Virus record (IMG/VR): IMGVR_UViG_3300026078_000336
Span: 1 to 22,772 of that record
DNA from: a virus
Strand: one strand, 5' to 3'
DNA length: 22,772 nt
Below, one piece after another: positions 3,600 to 20,038 of the stretch (position 1 is the stretch's first letter; each line of letters starts with the position of its first letter). A program made the translations under genes and the position numbers. The notes below the pieces were generated by a model. The model was not told the origin of the DNA, ran no database searches, and was given only the letters and a program-made list of their open reading frames with translations.

Positions 3600-3670
3600 T
3601 CCCCGTTCATCTAACGGTAAGATAGCGGGCTTTGAATCCGCTCATGGTGGTTCGAGTCCATCGCGGGGAA
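3600..3670 (+). tRNA. tRNA-Gln (UUG)
   Basis: A complete cloverleaf of 71 bases can be drawn. The acceptor stem pairs TCCCCGT (3600-3606) with GCGGGGA (3663-3669), with one G-U pair. The D stem is ATCT/AGAT around AACGGTA. The anticodon stem is GCGGG/TCCGC with the loop CTTTGAA, so the anticodon is TTG and it reads CAA. The variable loop is 4 bases; the T stem GGTGG/CCATC encloses TTCGAGT. The discriminator is A3670 and CCA is not encoded. It begins 4 bases after the stop of the GroES-like gene. In a GC-rich genome where CAG should dominate, a CAA-reading tRNA may compensate for host scarcity (inference). Confidence 0.95.
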
Positions 3671-14139: not shown

Positions 14140-14967
14140 ATGAAGGCTTCGGAGGTTGCAAGCCTCGCGCAACTGTGGTCCGGCGAGCAGAACGTCGGGC
14201 AGACCTGGACGCCTTCGCAATGGCTTCAGGCGGTTGACCGCGCGCAGAAAACCCTCGTGCGGGACCTCAAATGGCCCCCGTCGCGGTTTCTGTTCACCTC
14301 TACGCCTCAGGTCCAGGAATACCAACTGCAGGAAGTGCTGCTCATCTTGCGCGTGTACGTCAACGGGCAGATTCTCCCGCGAACGTCCATCCCGCAACTC
14401 GAAGGCGAACAGTTGCAGGTCGATGACCAGAGCGGCAACGTCGGCGGTCCTTCGGGCCTCGTCTCGCCTGTTGCGCCTCCGGTAATCGCCGGGGGGCAAT
14501 ACACCCCCGCGTGGACCTCGGCCCCGCCCGCCAACTATCCGGCGTCCAATAACTTCCTTTACGGAACCACCCTCTCGGCCTCCCCGTGGTTTACGGGCCA
14601 ACGGCCCATGTACTACACGCGCGGAGGGAACGTAGGGATTGTGCCTGCGCCGCTCACTGCGGTTCCCGTGGTGTGCGATGTGGTACGGCAGCCCGTTCCG
14701 CTCCAGGCGATGACCGATGATATGGTCCTGCCGGACATTTGCTCGGATGCGATGGCTTGGGACGCCTGCGAGCAGTTCTATTATTCGGTACGCGACCAGA
14801 GCGGGTCATCGGACAACCGCAACTTCGCGCACGAGAAGCGTATGGAGGCGATGCAGAAGTGCAAGGATTGGCGCAAGACGTATGAAGGGGGCATCCAGGG
14901 ACCCATTCCGCTGACCTACCGGACCTATTATCGCAAGGGCCAACGACGATTGGGGAATGACGTATGA
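14140..14967 (+). CDS. Head-tail adaptor (connector) protein
   Basis: The 275-aa protein begins with an amphipathic helical domain (ASLAQLWSGEQNVGQTWTPSQWLQAVDRAQ) followed by WPPSRFLFTSTPQVQEYQLQEVLLILRVYVNG. The latter is the strand pair commonly seen in gp4/gp11-type adaptors of podovirus-like phages. Around 157-171, MYYTRGGNVGIVPAP matches the Y-x-R-G-G-x-x-G-x-x-P-x-P signature. The C-terminus is helical and basic (EKRMEAMQKCKDWRKTYEGG). Adaptors dock under the portal and link it to the tail. The ATG has AAGGGG just upstream, and the stop overlaps the next start by 4 bases. Confidence 0.75.
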   Translation: MKASEVASLAQLWSGEQNVGQTWTPSQWLQAVDRAQKTLVRDLKWPPSRFLFTSTPQVQEYQLQEVLLILRVYVNGQILPRTSIPQLEGEQLQVDDQSGNVGGPSGLVSPVAPPVIAGGQYTPAWTSAPPANYPASNNFLYGTTLSASPWFTGQRPMYYTRGGNVGIVPAPLTAVPVVCDVVRQPVPLQAMTDDMVLPDICSDAMAWDACEQFYYSVRDQSGSSDNRNFAHEKRMEAMQKCKDWRKTYEGGIQGPIPLTYRTYYRKGQRRLGNDV

Positions 14968-15515
14968 CGTATCCTTCCGGGTTGAATCTCGAATACGCCG
15001 ACGCGGGCGTGGTCTCCATCGACCCTGGCTTTGAATATCAAGGCCAGGAAACGGGGGCGCTCTACGTCGAGACGCGCATCATTCAGGGCGCAATCTATAA
15101 CGTCCAGAACGCGACCTGGAACAAGTTTGCTCAAGTGTGGTCGCTTGTCGATGTCACGAAGCCCGCCAACGGGTTCTTGCTCGATGCGAGCGGGGTATTC
15201 TCGGTCATCACCTCGCCAAGCGGAACCACGCCGTTCACCGTATGGACGACCACCGGGGTCTTGAGCCTGCAACGCTCGGGAACGCAGGCGTCCGTACCTG
15301 CGGATGGTTCGGCGGCGGTGACGATTTCGTACTCCTCGCCCTTTCCGACCGCGACGAGCGCGGTGGTGCCGTCCATCATCAACGATTATCAGGCGAACCC
15401 GTGGGGCCTTACGGTGCAAATAACCGGGGTAACGAAAACCGGGTTCACGGTCAATGTCGCAGGTGCGCCTTCTGGCGCGACCGTCTCTGTGGGGTATATC
15501 GCCAATGGAAATTAA
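14964..15515 (+). CDS. Structural protein with C-terminal beta-sandwich, 183 aa
   Basis: ATGA overlap with the adaptor gene. Residues 1-105 form an unrecognised strand-rich domain. From about 110 the sequence VPADGSAAVTIS, then PF near 128, then TGVTKTGFTVNVAGAPSG and a terminal Y-I-A-N-G-N, has the layout of the small lectin-like sandwich that ends many phage fibre proteins (P-F-x-x-P, T-x-T-G-F-x-V, terminal A-x-G). The 101-aa protein at 18044 has the same pattern. It may be a tail-surface or collar protein. The stop overlaps the hydrolase gene by 11 bases. Confidence 0.65.
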   Translation: MTYPSGLNLEYADAGVVSIDPGFEYQGQETGALYVETRIIQGAIYNVQNATWNKFAQVWSLVDVTKPANGFLLDASGVFSVITSPSGTTPFTVWTTTGVLSLQRSGTQASVPADGSAAVTISYSSPFPTATSAVVPSIINDYQANPWGLTVQITGVTKTGFTVNVAGAPSGATVSVGYIANGN

Positions 15516-17073
15516 GAAGATTCTCCCCAGGGTTCCGGGGTGGGCGATGCTCACGCTGGCAATCCTCGCGTCGTTCCTGGTCGGCGGTCAAGCCGCAACG
15601 GTCGTCTACAACGGCAGCCTCGCGGTTCCTACGGGCGGGTCGATTACGAACAGTAACTTCCCCTCAGGCAATGAGGTATTCACGACGACGGGAGGGCTGT
15701 TCACCTCCGCCCCCGTACCCGCGGCGACGATTAACCCGTCCTCAACGACGACCGCGACGTTCTATTTCGCGGGAGATTCCATCACCTATGGCCTGGGCAT
15801 CAACAACCAGACGGCGCTCGGGTGCTCGGGATACACGTACCCTTCGCCCTGTTTCGCAGACCAGGTTTCCTCGTACTTCGGGGCCACGGAATCGAACAAG
15901 GGCGTCCCGTCTACGTGCTTGGAATCGACCACGACAGTTGGGAGCCTGTGCAATCCTGCCGTAGCCACCCCGCTCATCACCTCGTACACGACGAGTCTCT
16001 TGCCCCATGCCGGAGCCAACAACAATTGGTTCTGGATTATGATAGGAACGAACGATACGGCGTGCGCGTCCTATCTCTGCAACTCCGAGGCCGCCGTGGA
16101 CACGCAGGTCAACGTAGCGACGTACAAGGCGGACCTGGCGACTATCGTCTCGGCACTTGAGAGTGCGGGGACGCCGGGGAATCAAATCGTCCTCTCGGAG
16201 ATTATCCAGAACATTTATATCTCGCAGACGCTGGCAAACACGCTCGCGCCTACGGCCCTGGTGCAGAACTTCAACACGGCCATTGCGGAAGTGGCCCTGC
16301 AGTACCACACGCGCCTGGCGACCTCGTACCACGCGACCGGGCAATGTATCCCGAACGTCTCCACGCAAGTCAACCCGTGCCTCTTCGATAACGTCCACCC
16401 GAACAACACGGGCCATGCGAATATCGCCTTGGAGTACGAGGCGGCAACGCAATCCAATGCGCTGACGGCGCGCGCGGCGTATGCGTCCAATGCGACCCTC
16501 AACTCCGTTCAGGCGGTGACGAATCCGTACAACGCACAGTTCTCGGTCAAGACGCTCAACGTGACGGGAACCACCTCCTCGCTCTACGGACCCTTGAGCA
16601 CCTATCGGTTGCTGAATTGGGGAACGGCGGCGAGCACGGCGGGCGGCTTCATGAATATCGGCACGGGCGCAAGTACGGCGGCAGGTGTCGCGGGAACGTG
16701 CCTCATCCTCTTCCCGGGAGCGAGCCCGCCACCGGGCGGTGTGGATATGACGGTCAACTGCCTCTCGGGGGACATCGGCTCGGGGGGAACGGTGAAGTAT
16801 GCGGTCCCGGTCGCCACGACGTGCACCTCCGCGGCGGTGCTGGCCTGCATCTTCTCGTGGACGTGCACGATGAGCAGCGGGGCGTGTACGACGACGCAGG
16901 CGATTCCGTCTGGCGCGACGTGTACGGTTCAAGCGAATGTCACGCCTCGCATAAGTTCCACGAACATCGTTACGGATTGGGTGACCGTTTCCGGAACGGT
17001 GCTGACGGTGCACGTCACCGATATGCTGGCATCAGCATCCTCGGCGTTCTCCGGCGTCGGAAGTTGCGTCTAA
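15505..17073 (+). CDS. Exported SGNH/GDSL hydrolase with cysteine-rich C-terminus
   Basis: Residues 1-30 form a signal peptide: charged KK, hydrophobic 12-27, then GQA as cleavage site. After it comes VYNGSLAVP, shared with neighbouring genes. The hydrolase core has block I FAGDSITYG with nucleophile S92, block II NKG (131-133), block III GTND with N183, and block V FDNVHP with D295 and H298, the full set expected for an active esterase/deacetylase. Residues 320-395 form a probable linker; 420-522 hold six cysteines (440, 448, 454, 461, 473, 521) in a domain shared with the next gene. Such enzymes often remove acetyl groups from polysaccharides. I use the ATG at 15505; an upstream in-frame ATG would bury the signal peptide. 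Confidence 0.88.
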   Translation: MEIKKILPRVPGWAMLTLAILASFLVGGQAATVVYNGSLAVPTGGSITNSNFPSGNEVFTTTGGLFTSAPVPAATINPSSTTTATFYFAGDSITYGLGINNQTALGCSGYTYPSPCFADQVSSYFGATESNKGVPSTCLESTTTVGSLCNPAVATPLITSYTTSLLPHAGANNNWFWIMIGTNDTACASYLCNSEAAVDTQVNVATYKADLATIVSALESAGTPGNQIVLSEIIQNIYISQTLANTLAPTALVQNFNTAIAEVALQYHTRLATSYHATGQCIPNVSTQVNPCLFDNVHPNNTGHANIALEYEAATQSNALTARAAYASNATLNSVQAVTNPYNAQFSVKTLNVTGTTSSLYGPLSTYRLLNWGTAASTAGGFMNIGTGASTAAGVAGTCLILFPGASPPPGGVDMTVNCLSGDIGSGGTVKYAVPVATTCTSAAVLACIFSWTCTMSSGACTTTQAIPSGATCTVQANVTPRISSTNIVTDWVTVSGTVLTVHVTDMLASASSAFSGVGSCV

Positions 17074-17085
17074 AGGAGGCATCAC

Positions 17086-18036
17086 ATGAAGAAACTACTG
17101 CTTGCTCTCGCCGTCTGTGCGATGCTTCCTCTGGTGGCCCTTGCGGATTCTCCGCTCGCGACCTACAGCGGAAGCCTTGCGGCGACGGGCACCTCGGTCC
17201 CGCTCTCGCTTGCGGGGCAATCCACCTGTGCGGTGGTCCTGTCAGGAACCTGGACCGGAACGGCGACGTTCCAGGGCTCGGGCGATAACGGCGCGACCTG
17301 GAACACGGTCACGAATATCAACACCGGAACGGCGACGGCCAACGGGACGTATGGCGGGAACATCGCCCCGTACCTTACGCGGTTCCGCGTCTCGTGGGCG
17401 CGCTCGACCGGAACCCTGGTCTACTTCGAGGCGTGTTCGGCTACGGTGAGTGCGAACGGGGGTCTTGGTCCGAACCCGGTTTTTACGGGGAGCGTGGTCG
17501 GTAACGCAGGTGCGGCCACGCCTTCTCCTGCACCCACGGGTTTCAACGGCCCTTTCGTCGTCGCGCAAGCAACGGCGCTTCCGACCGGACAGCCTGGCAA
17601 TATTGGCGTAACCGGGAGCGTCCAAGTGGTCAACGGCACGTTCTCGGGAGGGTACGTCAACTGCAATGGGTTTGCGGCGGTATGCGCGCCGACGCTTATG
17701 GTATCCAACACGGGGCGCATTTCTCTGGCTTCGGGCGGTGGCTCGATTACGGGGACGATTCCCTTCACTTCTCCGACCCATGCCATCGTGTGTTCGTCTA
17801 CGAGCGACCTCCCGTGCGTGGCGACGGGAACGTGCAGCCTCTCCGCAGCGACCACCTGCAACTTCACGACCTCGGTCCCGGCAAGTTCCAACTGCGATGC
17901 GACTCGGAACAACAGCGATACGACCACGGGGGTTTCCTCGTGGAAGGCGTCCTTGACCACGACCACGTTGACCGTTACGGTCACGGCGGCGGCCTCGCAG
18001 ACGACGACCGCCGCCGTGAATATCCATTGTCTGTGA
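17086..18036 (+). CDS. Exported structural-type protein with six-cysteine C-terminal domain
   Basis: The strongest ribosome site in the window (AAAGGAGG) precedes the ATG. Residues 1-20 are a classic Sec signal peptide (MKKLLLALAVCAMLPLVALA, cleavage before DSP). Next is ATYSGSLAATG, matching the mature N-termini of neighbours. Residues 45-118 form a beta-sandwich common in phage tail proteins (SGTWTGTATFQGSGDNGATW, then FRVSWARSTGTL). A low-complexity linker leads to a C-terminal domain from about 218 with cysteines 236, 244, 250, 258, 270 and 315, spaced almost as in the hydrolase. No catalytic motif. The cysteines suggest disulfides formed outside the cytoplasm. The partner or target is unknown. 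Confidence 0.8.
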   Translation: MKKLLLALAVCAMLPLVALADSPLATYSGSLAATGTSVPLSLAGQSTCAVVLSGTWTGTATFQGSGDNGATWNTVTNINTGTATANGTYGGNIAPYLTRFRVSWARSTGTLVYFEACSATVSANGGLGPNPVFTGSVVGNAGAATPSPAPTGFNGPFVVAQATALPTGQPGNIGVTGSVQVVNGTFSGGYVNCNGFAAVCAPTLMVSNTGRISLASGGGSITGTIPFTSPTHAIVCSSTSDLPCVATGTCSLSAATTCNFTTSVPASSNCDATRNNSDTTTGVSSWKASLTTTTLTVTVTAAASQTTTAAVNIHCL

Positions 18037-18043
18037 GGGCGGC

Positions 18044-18349
18044 ATGACGCAGATAGTGTCTCAGGACTTCCGCTTCGCTACGCCGCAACAGGGGGCTACC
18101 TTGACCACGCAACCTTGGTCCGCATCCTCCGTTCCCCTGGACGGTTCGAGTTCGGTGGTTGTTCCGTTTCTCGACCCGTTCGCCCAATATTGCAATGCGG
18201 TGAACCCGCAGTATAACCCCAATGCCCTCACGGGCTACGTCCTGGCCCCGGAGATTACGGATGTCACGACGCAAGGGTTCACGCTCACGGTCTACGGTGG
18301 CCCTTCGGGCATGACGGGGCCCTTCTTCGGAACGGCGACGGGCATATGA
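18044..18349 (+). CDS. Small beta-sandwich protein, 101 aa
   Basis: No signal peptide, unlike its neighbours. Residues 31-101 share a pattern with the end of the 14964 gene: VPLDGS, alternating strand SVVVP, PF, then ITDVTTQGFTLTVYGGPSG and a terminal G-T-A-T-G-I. This looks like a diverged duplicate of the lectin-like sandwich. The start is ATG 18044 with a weak GAGGG; the stop overlaps the next gene by 4 bases (ATGA). It is probably a tail or fibre accessory made together with the S74 protein. Confidence 0.65.
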   Translation: MTQIVSQDFRFATPQQGATLTTQPWSASSVPLDGSSSVVVPFLDPFAQYCNAVNPQYNPNALTGYVLAPEITDVTTQGFTLTVYGGPSGMTGPFFGTATGI

Positions 18350-19215
18350 GACGGCTTCTGCTGGCGCTGGCTCTCGTGCTGTTCCCGGCGACCGCCTCGG
18401 CGGGGGCGCTCTACACGGGCTCGCTCTATGTGCCGATTGGCTCGACGGTCACGTTGCAGGGTTCGACGGTCGGGTGCGCCCTGTTCAATGGCTCGGGGGT
18501 TCTCTACGAGGGCGTGTGCCCTTCGGGGACGGCAGCGTTCTCCGGGACGTTGCCCATCGTCATCACGGGCTCGGGTCCGTATGCCATCACCTGTCCTACC
18601 TGCTTCACGACGGCAGGCGGGTCGGTGTCCGGTGCGACCACCTTCTCGTCGCTCCTCACGGCAAGCGCGGGCATCAACAGTACGTCTACGGGAGTTCCGG
18701 TCACGAGCGGCGCGTCGGGGTTCGCGTCTGCGGGATACTACCTGGGCTCGACCGCTGGCTTCACGAAACTCTCGACCACGGGAACGTCGGTCTGCGGCGG
18801 GGTCACGGGCAACGCGCTGACCATCACCTCCAATGCCACCCCCATCATCGGTATCGACCAGGCGGGGAATCTCTGCGCCATCGGGACCATCTACTATACC
18901 TCCGACCCGAAGGCCAAGACGGACATCGCGGTGGCGCATATCGACGGGCTTGCGGCCATCCGTGGCGCAGACTTCGACTTGTCCTGGCGCTACAAGGGCT
19001 CGAACCAGGTGCATTACGGGCCGATGGCGACCCAACTCCCCTCCTTCATTTCCGGCCCCAACCACGACCATATCGACACGCAAGCCCTCGCGACGACGGA
19101 AGCCATCGCCATCCAGCAGTTGAGCAACCAGGTCGAGGCGATGCGCTGGATGGTCGCAATCCTGGCGGGCCTTCTCGTCCTGATTGGATGCGTGGCAGTT
19201 GGTCGGCGGGCGTAG
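18346..19215 (+). CDS. Exported S74-chaperone fibre-like protein with C-terminal TM helix
   Basis: Residues 1-19 are a signal peptide (MRRLLLALALVLFPATASA). The mature start ALYTGSLYVP resembles the two preceding exported proteins. Residues 30-180 are Gly/Ser/Thr-rich and strand-like, with several cysteines. Residues 185-267 match the peptidase S74 intramolecular chaperone of tailspikes: S186-D-x3-K191 as the expected Ser-Lys dyad, I-x-x-I-x-G-L, a Y-G-P-M-A-T-Q-L segment in place of I-A-Q-E-V, and a helix with Q-Q-L-S-N-Q-V-E. Residues 268-285 are a membrane helix ending GRRA. S74 domains drive trimer folding and then cut themselves off; here the released part would stay membrane-bound. Both termini point to the membrane. 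Confidence 0.82.
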   Translation: MRRLLLALALVLFPATASAGALYTGSLYVPIGSTVTLQGSTVGCALFNGSGVLYEGVCPSGTAAFSGTLPIVITGSGPYAITCPTCFTTAGGSVSGATTFSSLLTASAGINSTSTGVPVTSGASGFASAGYYLGSTAGFTKLSTTGTSVCGGVTGNALTITSNATPIIGIDQAGNLCAIGTIYYTSDPKAKTDIAVAHIDGLAAIRGADFDLSWRYKGSNQVHYGPMATQLPSFISGPNHDHIDTQALATTEAIAIQQLSNQVEAMRWMVAILAGLLVLIGCVAVGRRA

Positions 19216-20038
19216 GGTCCTCGCAGGGGTTCTCCTTGCGCTCACGCTAGCCATCTCCGGGTCGCAGACGCTGACCCGCGGCTATCTCTATAGCAACATC
19301 GGCACCCTGTTCACCTGGGCCTCTTCCGCGCAAGCGGGATGGAACGGTAGTTCCCAGGTAGCGACCTGCGCCGACTTCGCCACCTATATCCAGAACGACG
19401 GGACCCCCTGCGTTTCCAGCGTGGCGACCCTCTTGGATTCCTACGCGCTTGCCCATGCGGTCAACAGCGTTACGCATAGCCCCCTCGTAGCCAACGGGAC
19501 GTTCTTGAACGGCACCTTCTCGCCGTGGACGAGTGCGAATACGGGCGCGTGTTCGGGGGTCATCACCTTCGCGGGACAACCCGTAAGCCCGGACTACAAC
19601 GGGGACAACGGCGTGGCGGCGGCCTCCTCGGGAACGTGCGTAGCAACCCCGGCAGAGACGACGTTGACGCAGGTGTTCTCCATCGCGGGAACGCCTACGG
19701 TGCAGACGTACTTCTTCGCCTACCGTGCGTTGCAATCGACCTACGGGGACCCGGATTGTACCGTCGCTTCGGGCTCCGTCTCGATGCTGTTGAAGATGAA
19801 CGGCACCACGGTGGCATCCATCGCAAGCCCAGCGCTTGACGGGGCTTGGCATACGGTAAGTGGAACGATGACCGCTATGGCGAACGGTTCAAACACCCTC
19901 GTTCTCGATGCTACTCTTGCGGGCGCTACGGGGGCCACGCAGATTTTCCGGCCTGGCATTGGCGATGTCTGCAAGCCCGCCGTCACCGTAGCGCAACCGT
20001 TGCAGGTGGACGACTTCATCCTCTCGGCGGTGTTCTAG
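19184..20038 (+). CDS. Exported carbohydrate-binding-like protein, 284 aa
   Basis: Hydrophobic residues 12-26 after an Arg pair (RRVLAGVLLALTLAIS) form a signal peptide or anchor. The start is uncertain: TTG at 19184 or TTG at 19199, both inside the previous gene, with no clear ribosome site. From about 104 the sequence NGTFLNGTFSPW opens a jelly-roll of carbohydrate-binding type (CBM4/9-like N-G-x-F-x-x-G-x-x-x-W). Further strands (TLTQVFSIAGTPTVQTYFFAYRA, AWHTVSGTMTAMANGSNTLVLDA) and a closing DDFILSAVF fit this. Two cysteine pairs may form disulfides. It probably binds sugars at the cell surface; the fold is inferred by pattern. Confidence 0.65.
   Translation: MDAWQLVGGRRVLAGVLLALTLAISGSQTLTRGYLYSNIGTLFTWASSAQAGWNGSSQVATCADFATYIQNDGTPCVSSVATLLDSYALAHAVNSVTHSPLVANGTFLNGTFSPWTSANTGACSGVITFAGQPVSPDYNGDNGVAAASSGTCVATPAETTLTQVFSIAGTPTVQTYFFAYRALQSTYGDPDCTVASGSVSMLLKMNGTTVASIASPALDGAWHTVSGTMTAMANGSNTLVLDATLAGATGATQIFRPGIGDVCKPAVTVAQPLQVDDFILSAVF

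Follow-up and report, generated by a model that had tools for sequence, protein, structure and literature searches.

A six-cysteine C-terminal module shared by proteins with signal-peptide-like N-termini in the tail block of an uncultured phage

Two adjacent genes in the tail block of an uncultured virus, coding for an SGNH/GDSL hydrolase and for a 316-aa protein, end in the same six-cysteine module, and a third copy of this module ends a spike-like protein of an unrelated phage. Positions given here are those of the window, i.e. the whole 22,772-nt stretch of DNA analysed (IMG/VR record IMGVR_UViG_3300026078_000336), and genes are named after their start. On balance, we think that the module is probably a disulfide-stapled, lectin-like C-terminal trimerisation or tip module carried by exported spike-type proteins.

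Two C-termini in the window share a six-cysteine module

An earlier note on this DNA had described the spacing C-x7-C-x5-C-x6/7-C-x11-C-x44/47-C at both C-termini, with the last cysteine as the penultimate residue. Checked residue by residue, both points are exact. The cysteines of the hydrolase lie at 457, 465, 471, 478, 490 and 538 of 539 aa (numbering from 15454), with spacing x7, x5, x6, x11 and x47, and those of the 17086 protein at 236, 244, 250, 258, 270 and 315 of 316 aa, with spacing x7, x5, x7, x11 and x44. Upstream of the six, each protein has two more, which the note had not counted (416 and 436 in the hydrolase, 193 and 200 in the 17086 protein). Coordinates are collected in Table 1.

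We aligned the two ends, as the note had proposed, and obtained 27% identity over 120 columns with the six cysteines and one tryptophan in register. BLASTP gave E = 1e-5 in a single comparison, with 16 of 53 residues identical, and none of 2000 shuffles reached the pairwise score (z = 6.3). Masking of the cysteines lowered z to 1.5, a score reached by 191/2000 shuffles; hence the cysteine pattern makes up most of the signal between the two window proteins. Homology was nevertheless settled by the third copy, on the contig L034, which matches the hydrolase with the cysteines masked (z = 5.0, 0/2000 shuffles) and agrees with the 17086 protein in 69% of 162 aligned columns. Chance similarity of the two ends is thereby ruled out. 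By sequence comparison the three copies are homologous, and the proposal of one module common to both C-termini is borne out.

Table 1. Features of the export-type genes and of the module copies in the window
Feature	Position	Strand	Basis or detail
SGNH/GDSL hydrolase gene, spike-type protein, six-Cys module at end	15505..17073	+	ORF call, Pfam
Signal-peptide-like N-terminus, hydrolase; ends ..GGQA/ATVV	15505..15594	+	hydropathy 2.29 over 14 residues, sequence
YNGSL segment right after predicted cleavage site, hydrolase	15607..15621	+	sequence
SGNH catalytic domain (Pfam envelope)	15766..16419	+	residues 89-306 of translation from 15502
Six-Cys C-terminal module, copy 1 (hydrolase)	16771..17070	+	Cys codons 16822, 16846, 16864, 16885, 16921, 17065
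316-aa spike-type protein, six-Cys module at end	17086..18036	+	ORF call; upstream AAAGGAGG
Signal-peptide-like N-terminus, 17086 protein; ends ..VALA/DSPL	17086..17145	+	hydropathy 2.81, top among listed genes
YSGSL segment past predicted cleavage site, 17086 protein	17164..17178	+	sequence
C-terminal region common to 17086 protein and L034 spike	17548..18033	+	69% over 162 columns; includes the module plus two more conserved Cys
Six-Cys C-terminal module, copy 2 (17086 protein)	17740..18033	+	Cys codons 17791, 17815, 17833, 17857, 17893, 18028
Third export-type Cys-rich protein, without six-Cys module; hydrophobic C-terminus	18346..19215	+	YTGSL (18412-18426) after signal segment
Fourth export-type Cys-rich protein, without six-Cys module; TTG start uncertain	19184..20038	+	sub-threshold CBM_4_9 match

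A third copy ends a spike-like protein of an unrelated phage

The third copy came from a scan of viral contigs with a degenerate DNA pattern. With the x7 form of the pattern, 40 viral stretches were obtained, among which this was the one real copy, 32 having an in-frame stop and 7 being open but unrelated by eye. The x6 form gave 2 viral stretches and a stricter x7 form 21 genome stretches, none of them related by eye. L034 is a 6277-base phage fragment, in which the module ends a 754-aa spike-like ORF; this ORF is cut at its 5′ end and, so truncated, holds 14 cysteines. All six cysteines are kept in the three copies, drawn from two phages, and the last of them is the penultimate residue in 3/3. 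The module is thus a terminal domain, on carriers that would be virion spikes. The translated L034 spike (L034:4014-6275) contains three copies of a repeated segment around PTAQPGNV; a single counterpart, PTGQPGNI, immediately precedes the module of the 17086 protein.

Directly downstream of the L034 spike ORF lie a baseplate protein that we take to be gp25-like (baseplate wedge subunit or baseplate protein in the PHROGs labels), a protein with a Baseplate_J match (Pfam E 8.8e-19) and one resembling Mu gp48, in this order. Baseplate genes of this kind are found in contractile-tail phages. The window belongs to another type of phage, an uncultured short-tailed-phage-like virus with terminase, portal/head-tail adaptor and capsid genes. 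A common end on tail-block proteins of two such unlike phages would fit the usual swapping of receptor-binding modules.

Searches for relatives of the module

The earlier note had recognised no named family, and we also obtained no match to the module in Pfam, PHROG, NCBIfam or PDB sequence searches. A related-locus search with alignment A3 gave the L034 contig only among viral contigs and nothing among genome contigs. For the H-type lectin family PF09458 the three copies produced no row at E up to 5, in a search whose HMMER filters drop most weak matches. We disregarded the weak matches of phrog_17706 to the hydrolase end (E 0.036) and of DUF5979, Cadherin-like and LtfC to the L034 module (E about 0.1-0.2).

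In 50,697 phage records, tblastn found no match for either module end, the hydrolase, the 18346 protein or the L034 end, nor for the full 17086 protein at E up to 10; the BLAST low-complexity filter applied in these searches may conceal Ser/Thr-rich relatives. The 20040 protein had no match in the same phage records, and the hydrolase end none in plasmids. A related-locus search of viral contigs yielded none for the hydrolase, the 17086 protein, the 20040 protein, the terminase or alignment A1. In whole genomes at E <= 0.01 there were matches in 13/399 and 6/385, all partial and several with stops; none scored above 22.7 bits, whereas L034 scored 232.6, and they were treated as noise. At E <= 0.001 the counts were 0/398 and 0/392. 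With no more than 10 candidates scored per genome at either threshold, the negative is a weak one.

Structure prediction

With the hydrolase end as first of two sequences, AlphaFold gave a model of pLDDT 38.5, which was not usable; its structure matches were at noise level (best Z 2.7) and included no tailspike C-terminal domains. With the 17086 end as first of three sequences, pLDDT was 47.7 overall and 53-73 over the last ~70 residues, and the model showed a six-stranded beta fold. Foldseek found no PDB match to the latter at E <= 0.001 (best 0.24); two viral predictions passed this threshold but superposed poorly. VIA-align gave a best Z of 6.7, within the tool's range for models without a clear match, where values of Z < 8 may reflect merely a common arrangement.

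Among the 50 matches listed by VIA-align, 12 are tailspike or pyocin-fibre C-terminal regions, from seven proteins (LKA1 gp49, Sf6, the R1 and R2 fibres, KP32gp38, phi297 and Pam1), and a further 3 belong to Helix agglutinins or SLL-2 (2ccv, 4q56, 3wmp). Where numbered, the tailspike and fibre alignments fall at or near C-terminal ends, e.g. at 616-699 of the R1 fibre construct 323-701. Against this low-confidence model, the tailspike/fibre C-terminal domains and the H-type lectins score Z 5.0-6.5, below the deciding level, and CUB, GOLD and collagen-binding beta-sandwiches score as high as the tailspikes. Because unrelated beta-sandwiches do equally well and Z stays under 8, a lectin-like fold of the module is no more than our best guess from the model.

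Signal-type N-termini and cysteine content in the tail block

The hydrolase belongs to the SGNH/GDSL hydrolases: it passes the Pfam cut-offs for PF13472 (E 2.6e-12) and PF00657 (E 6.2e-8) and has the GDS, GTND and DNVHP blocks. Its ORF exists in a longer form from 15454 (539 aa) and, from the ATG at 15505, codes for 522 residues; the start at 15505 is the more likely since the signal-type segment begins directly there.

Four tail-block genes (15505, 17086, 18346 and 19184) combine signal-peptide-like N-termini with high cysteine content; such N-termini are unexpected in a tail block. By sequence and hydropathy, a positively charged start, a hydrophobic core and a small-residue cleavage site are present in the 15505, 17086 and 18346 products, and the export-type N-termini that the earlier note had seen on the two module carriers are recognisable as such. 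The signal segment of the 19184 product is weaker because its start is uncertain; this fourth protein probably has a signal-type N-terminus too. We take the 18346 product to comprise a region like the S74-type tail chaperones, followed by a hydrophobic C-terminal segment; it has no Pfam match at E up to 0.1.

We counted 39 cysteines in the 1316 residues of the four mature export-type proteins, against 24/4203 in 14 other packaging and virion genes, a 5.2-fold difference (Fisher p 1e-10 if residues are taken to be independent; p 0.0017 in a rank test across genes). The mature proteins hold 16 (hydrolase), 10, 7 and 6 cysteines; the protein with the odd count has one of them within its hydrophobic C-terminal stretch. 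Within the window, these counts support an enrichment limited to the export-type proteins.

A Y-x-G-S-L motif follows the predicted cleavage site in 3/4 export-type proteins (15505, 17086 and 18346) and occurs in 0/14 other genes. The N-termini of the hydrolase and of the 18346 product are alike, at a level reached in 1/1000 shuffles. For pairs that include the 17086 protein, 175, 237 and 680 of 1000 shuffles reach the observed score, so these fail; two pairs involving the 19184 protein lie at the limit (55 and 48 of 1000). The motif is a better docking candidate than the six-cysteine module and could play this part at the N-terminus of the mature proteins.

The export-type genes lie within the tail block, and some overlap or pack closely with tail genes. 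They are flanked by the tail protein 14140 (phrog_10775, E 9e-4) and the tail/virion protein 20040 (phrog_511, E 2.6e-15). A host-derived (moron) cluster unconnected with the tail was rejected on this gene order and on the baseplate context of L034.

Comparison with known systems

The PDB entry 6tku, entitled 'capsule-specific depolymerase produced by Klebsiella phage', is presumably KP32gp38. As in KP32gp38 (6tku), Sf6, LKA1 gp49, phi297 gp61 and Pam1, the module would be a small beta domain at the extreme C-terminus of an enzyme-bearing spike, and its model weakly matches residues 488-574 (6tku), 549-622 (Sf6) and 679-765 (LKA1). No sequence similarity between those domains and the module is detectable. 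The LEC domain at the C-terminus of KP32gp38 is reported to be both required for trimerisation and enough to bring it about, binding being spread over all domains; the module has six conserved cysteines, whereas 'cysteine' and 'disulfide' do not occur in that paper (PMC13082707). H-type lectins (Helix pomatia agglutinin, PF09458) also weakly match the model (Z 6.0 over 73 residues, rmsd 2.5), from which the module differs by the lack of a PF09458 match at E up to 5.

An SGNH hydrolase within a phage tail block recalls the SGNH esterase tail spikes G7C gp63.1, Possum gp66 and the Klebsiella prophage RBPs. G7C gp63.1 is described as such a spike in PMC13123978, and the tail fibre (gp66) of Pectobacterium phage Possum deacetylates O-polysaccharide according to PMC9569702. 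The window hydrolase has, by contrast, a signal-peptide-like N-terminus and 16 cysteines, and 'signal peptide' is absent from PMC13123978. Cysteine-rich virion-type proteins are known from the Agrobacterium phages Milano and 7-7-1, where disulfides run through sheath, baseplate or capsid (PMC10811340, PMC12796354); the cysteines of the window are concentrated in the four signal-bearing proteins instead. Pantoea WceF is an exported tailspike-like enzyme acting on a surface glycan, as the window hydrolase may be, but it is a bacterial gene product with a beta-helix and a Tat rather than Sec-type signal, and 'disulfide' is absent from its paper (PMC7949094).

Possible role of the module

The six-cysteine module lies at the C-terminal end, recurs on the L034 spike and weakly resembles tailspike C-terminal domains, which points to a distal trimerisation or tip module rather than a virion-docking one. 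The C-terminal domain of many phage tail spikes trimerises them. In tail-spike-type proteins the module would form the lectin-like beta domain at the C-terminus, probably as a trimer, and in a variant stapled by three disulfides; from chain order these likely join Cys 1-2 (lead-in), 3-4 (first hairpin) and 5-6 (strand 3 start to strand 6 end). It may close off both the SGNH esterase spike and its 17086 neighbour at their distal ends, holding the trimer together, and may help the spike to hold on to the polysaccharide of the host surface, from which the SGNH domain would remove ester groups. Given the predicted Sec-type signal peptides on the carriers, the disulfides would form in the periplasm, and the concentration of cysteines in signal-bearing genes argues for folding there.

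A signal peptide is, however, hard to reconcile with cytoplasmic tail assembly, and export from the host cytoplasm is to our knowledge unusual for phage tail parts; in a partial coverage of the literature we found no report of signal peptides on tail spikes with periplasmic folding. Two answers are obvious: exported spikes could join virions at lysis, or could act on the host surface. The more extended scheme, in which adsorption proteins are Sec-exported, fold with disulfides in the periplasm and are mounted on virions at or after lysis or used on the host surface, the stapled trimerisation tip being an adaptation to this route, is one that we put forward tentatively and consider unlikely as a whole. 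We regard as similarly unlikely that the SGNH esterase and its neighbours are exported modifiers of the host surface, secreted in infection to trim or coat polysaccharide and so block superinfection or free progeny, with the module as a surface-anchoring or glycan-binding domain. The four signal-type N-termini, the cysteine enrichment and the hydrophobic C-terminus of the 18346 protein agree with such modifiers, as does the precedent of WceF, a bacterial tailspike-fold enzyme whose Tat signal peptide and action on exopolysaccharide are described in PMC7949094; yet the genes sit inside the tail block, and the third module copy belongs to a spike-like ORF next to genes for the baseplate.

Less plausible still are virion spikes that an uncleaved hydrophobic segment at the N-terminus would anchor within the tail, with cysteines becoming oxidised once the cell has lysed, in the manner of the disulfide-linked Milano virions. 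Disulfide networks are indeed documented in Milano and 7-7-1 virions (PMC10811340 and PMC12796354), but cysteines are enriched here solely in the signal-bearing genes and not virion-wide as in Milano, and the N-terminal segments finish with A-x-A or comparable sites of the signal-peptidase type. The earlier note, whose reading stands as to a single module, the lack of a named family and the export-type N-termini, had further suggested a common docking or binding module for this set, which would link the exported proteins with one another or with a shared partner. That role is less well supported and we judge it very unlikely: the module is common to adjacent genes of one operon-like block, but just 2/4 export-type proteins have it, it recurs in an unrelated phage fragment at the extreme C-terminus of a spike, its weak model resembles tailspike C-terminal domains, and tail proteins generally dock via their N-termini (PMC13082707).

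Returning to the trimerisation or tip module on exported spikes, true export of the carriers would mean that phages of this group cannot assemble their tail spikes along the textbook cytoplasmic route. This raises the testable question of where tail spikes fold and when they attach; of more interest is the path by which exported spikes would reach the virion, or else a possible action of theirs at the surface of the host. If the carriers are not exported, the module is still novel in sequence and of a kind useful for stable, oxidised receptor-binding proteins.

Further observations on the window

Small proteins without a signal segment are encoded at 14964-15515 and 18044-18349. The end of the 14964 protein has sub-threshold matches to H_lectin (E 0.0024) and Gp53-like_C (E 0.0084); a profile comparison gave no support for a family shared between this lectin-like end and the module. 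The phage is very isolated: its terminase matches just 10 phage records, at 24-26% identity, the archaeal virus ANMV-1 first and then cyanophages, and its portal has one match, to a Methanomicrobiales virus, over 25% of its length. A tRNA-Gln with anticodon ttg lies at 3600-3670.
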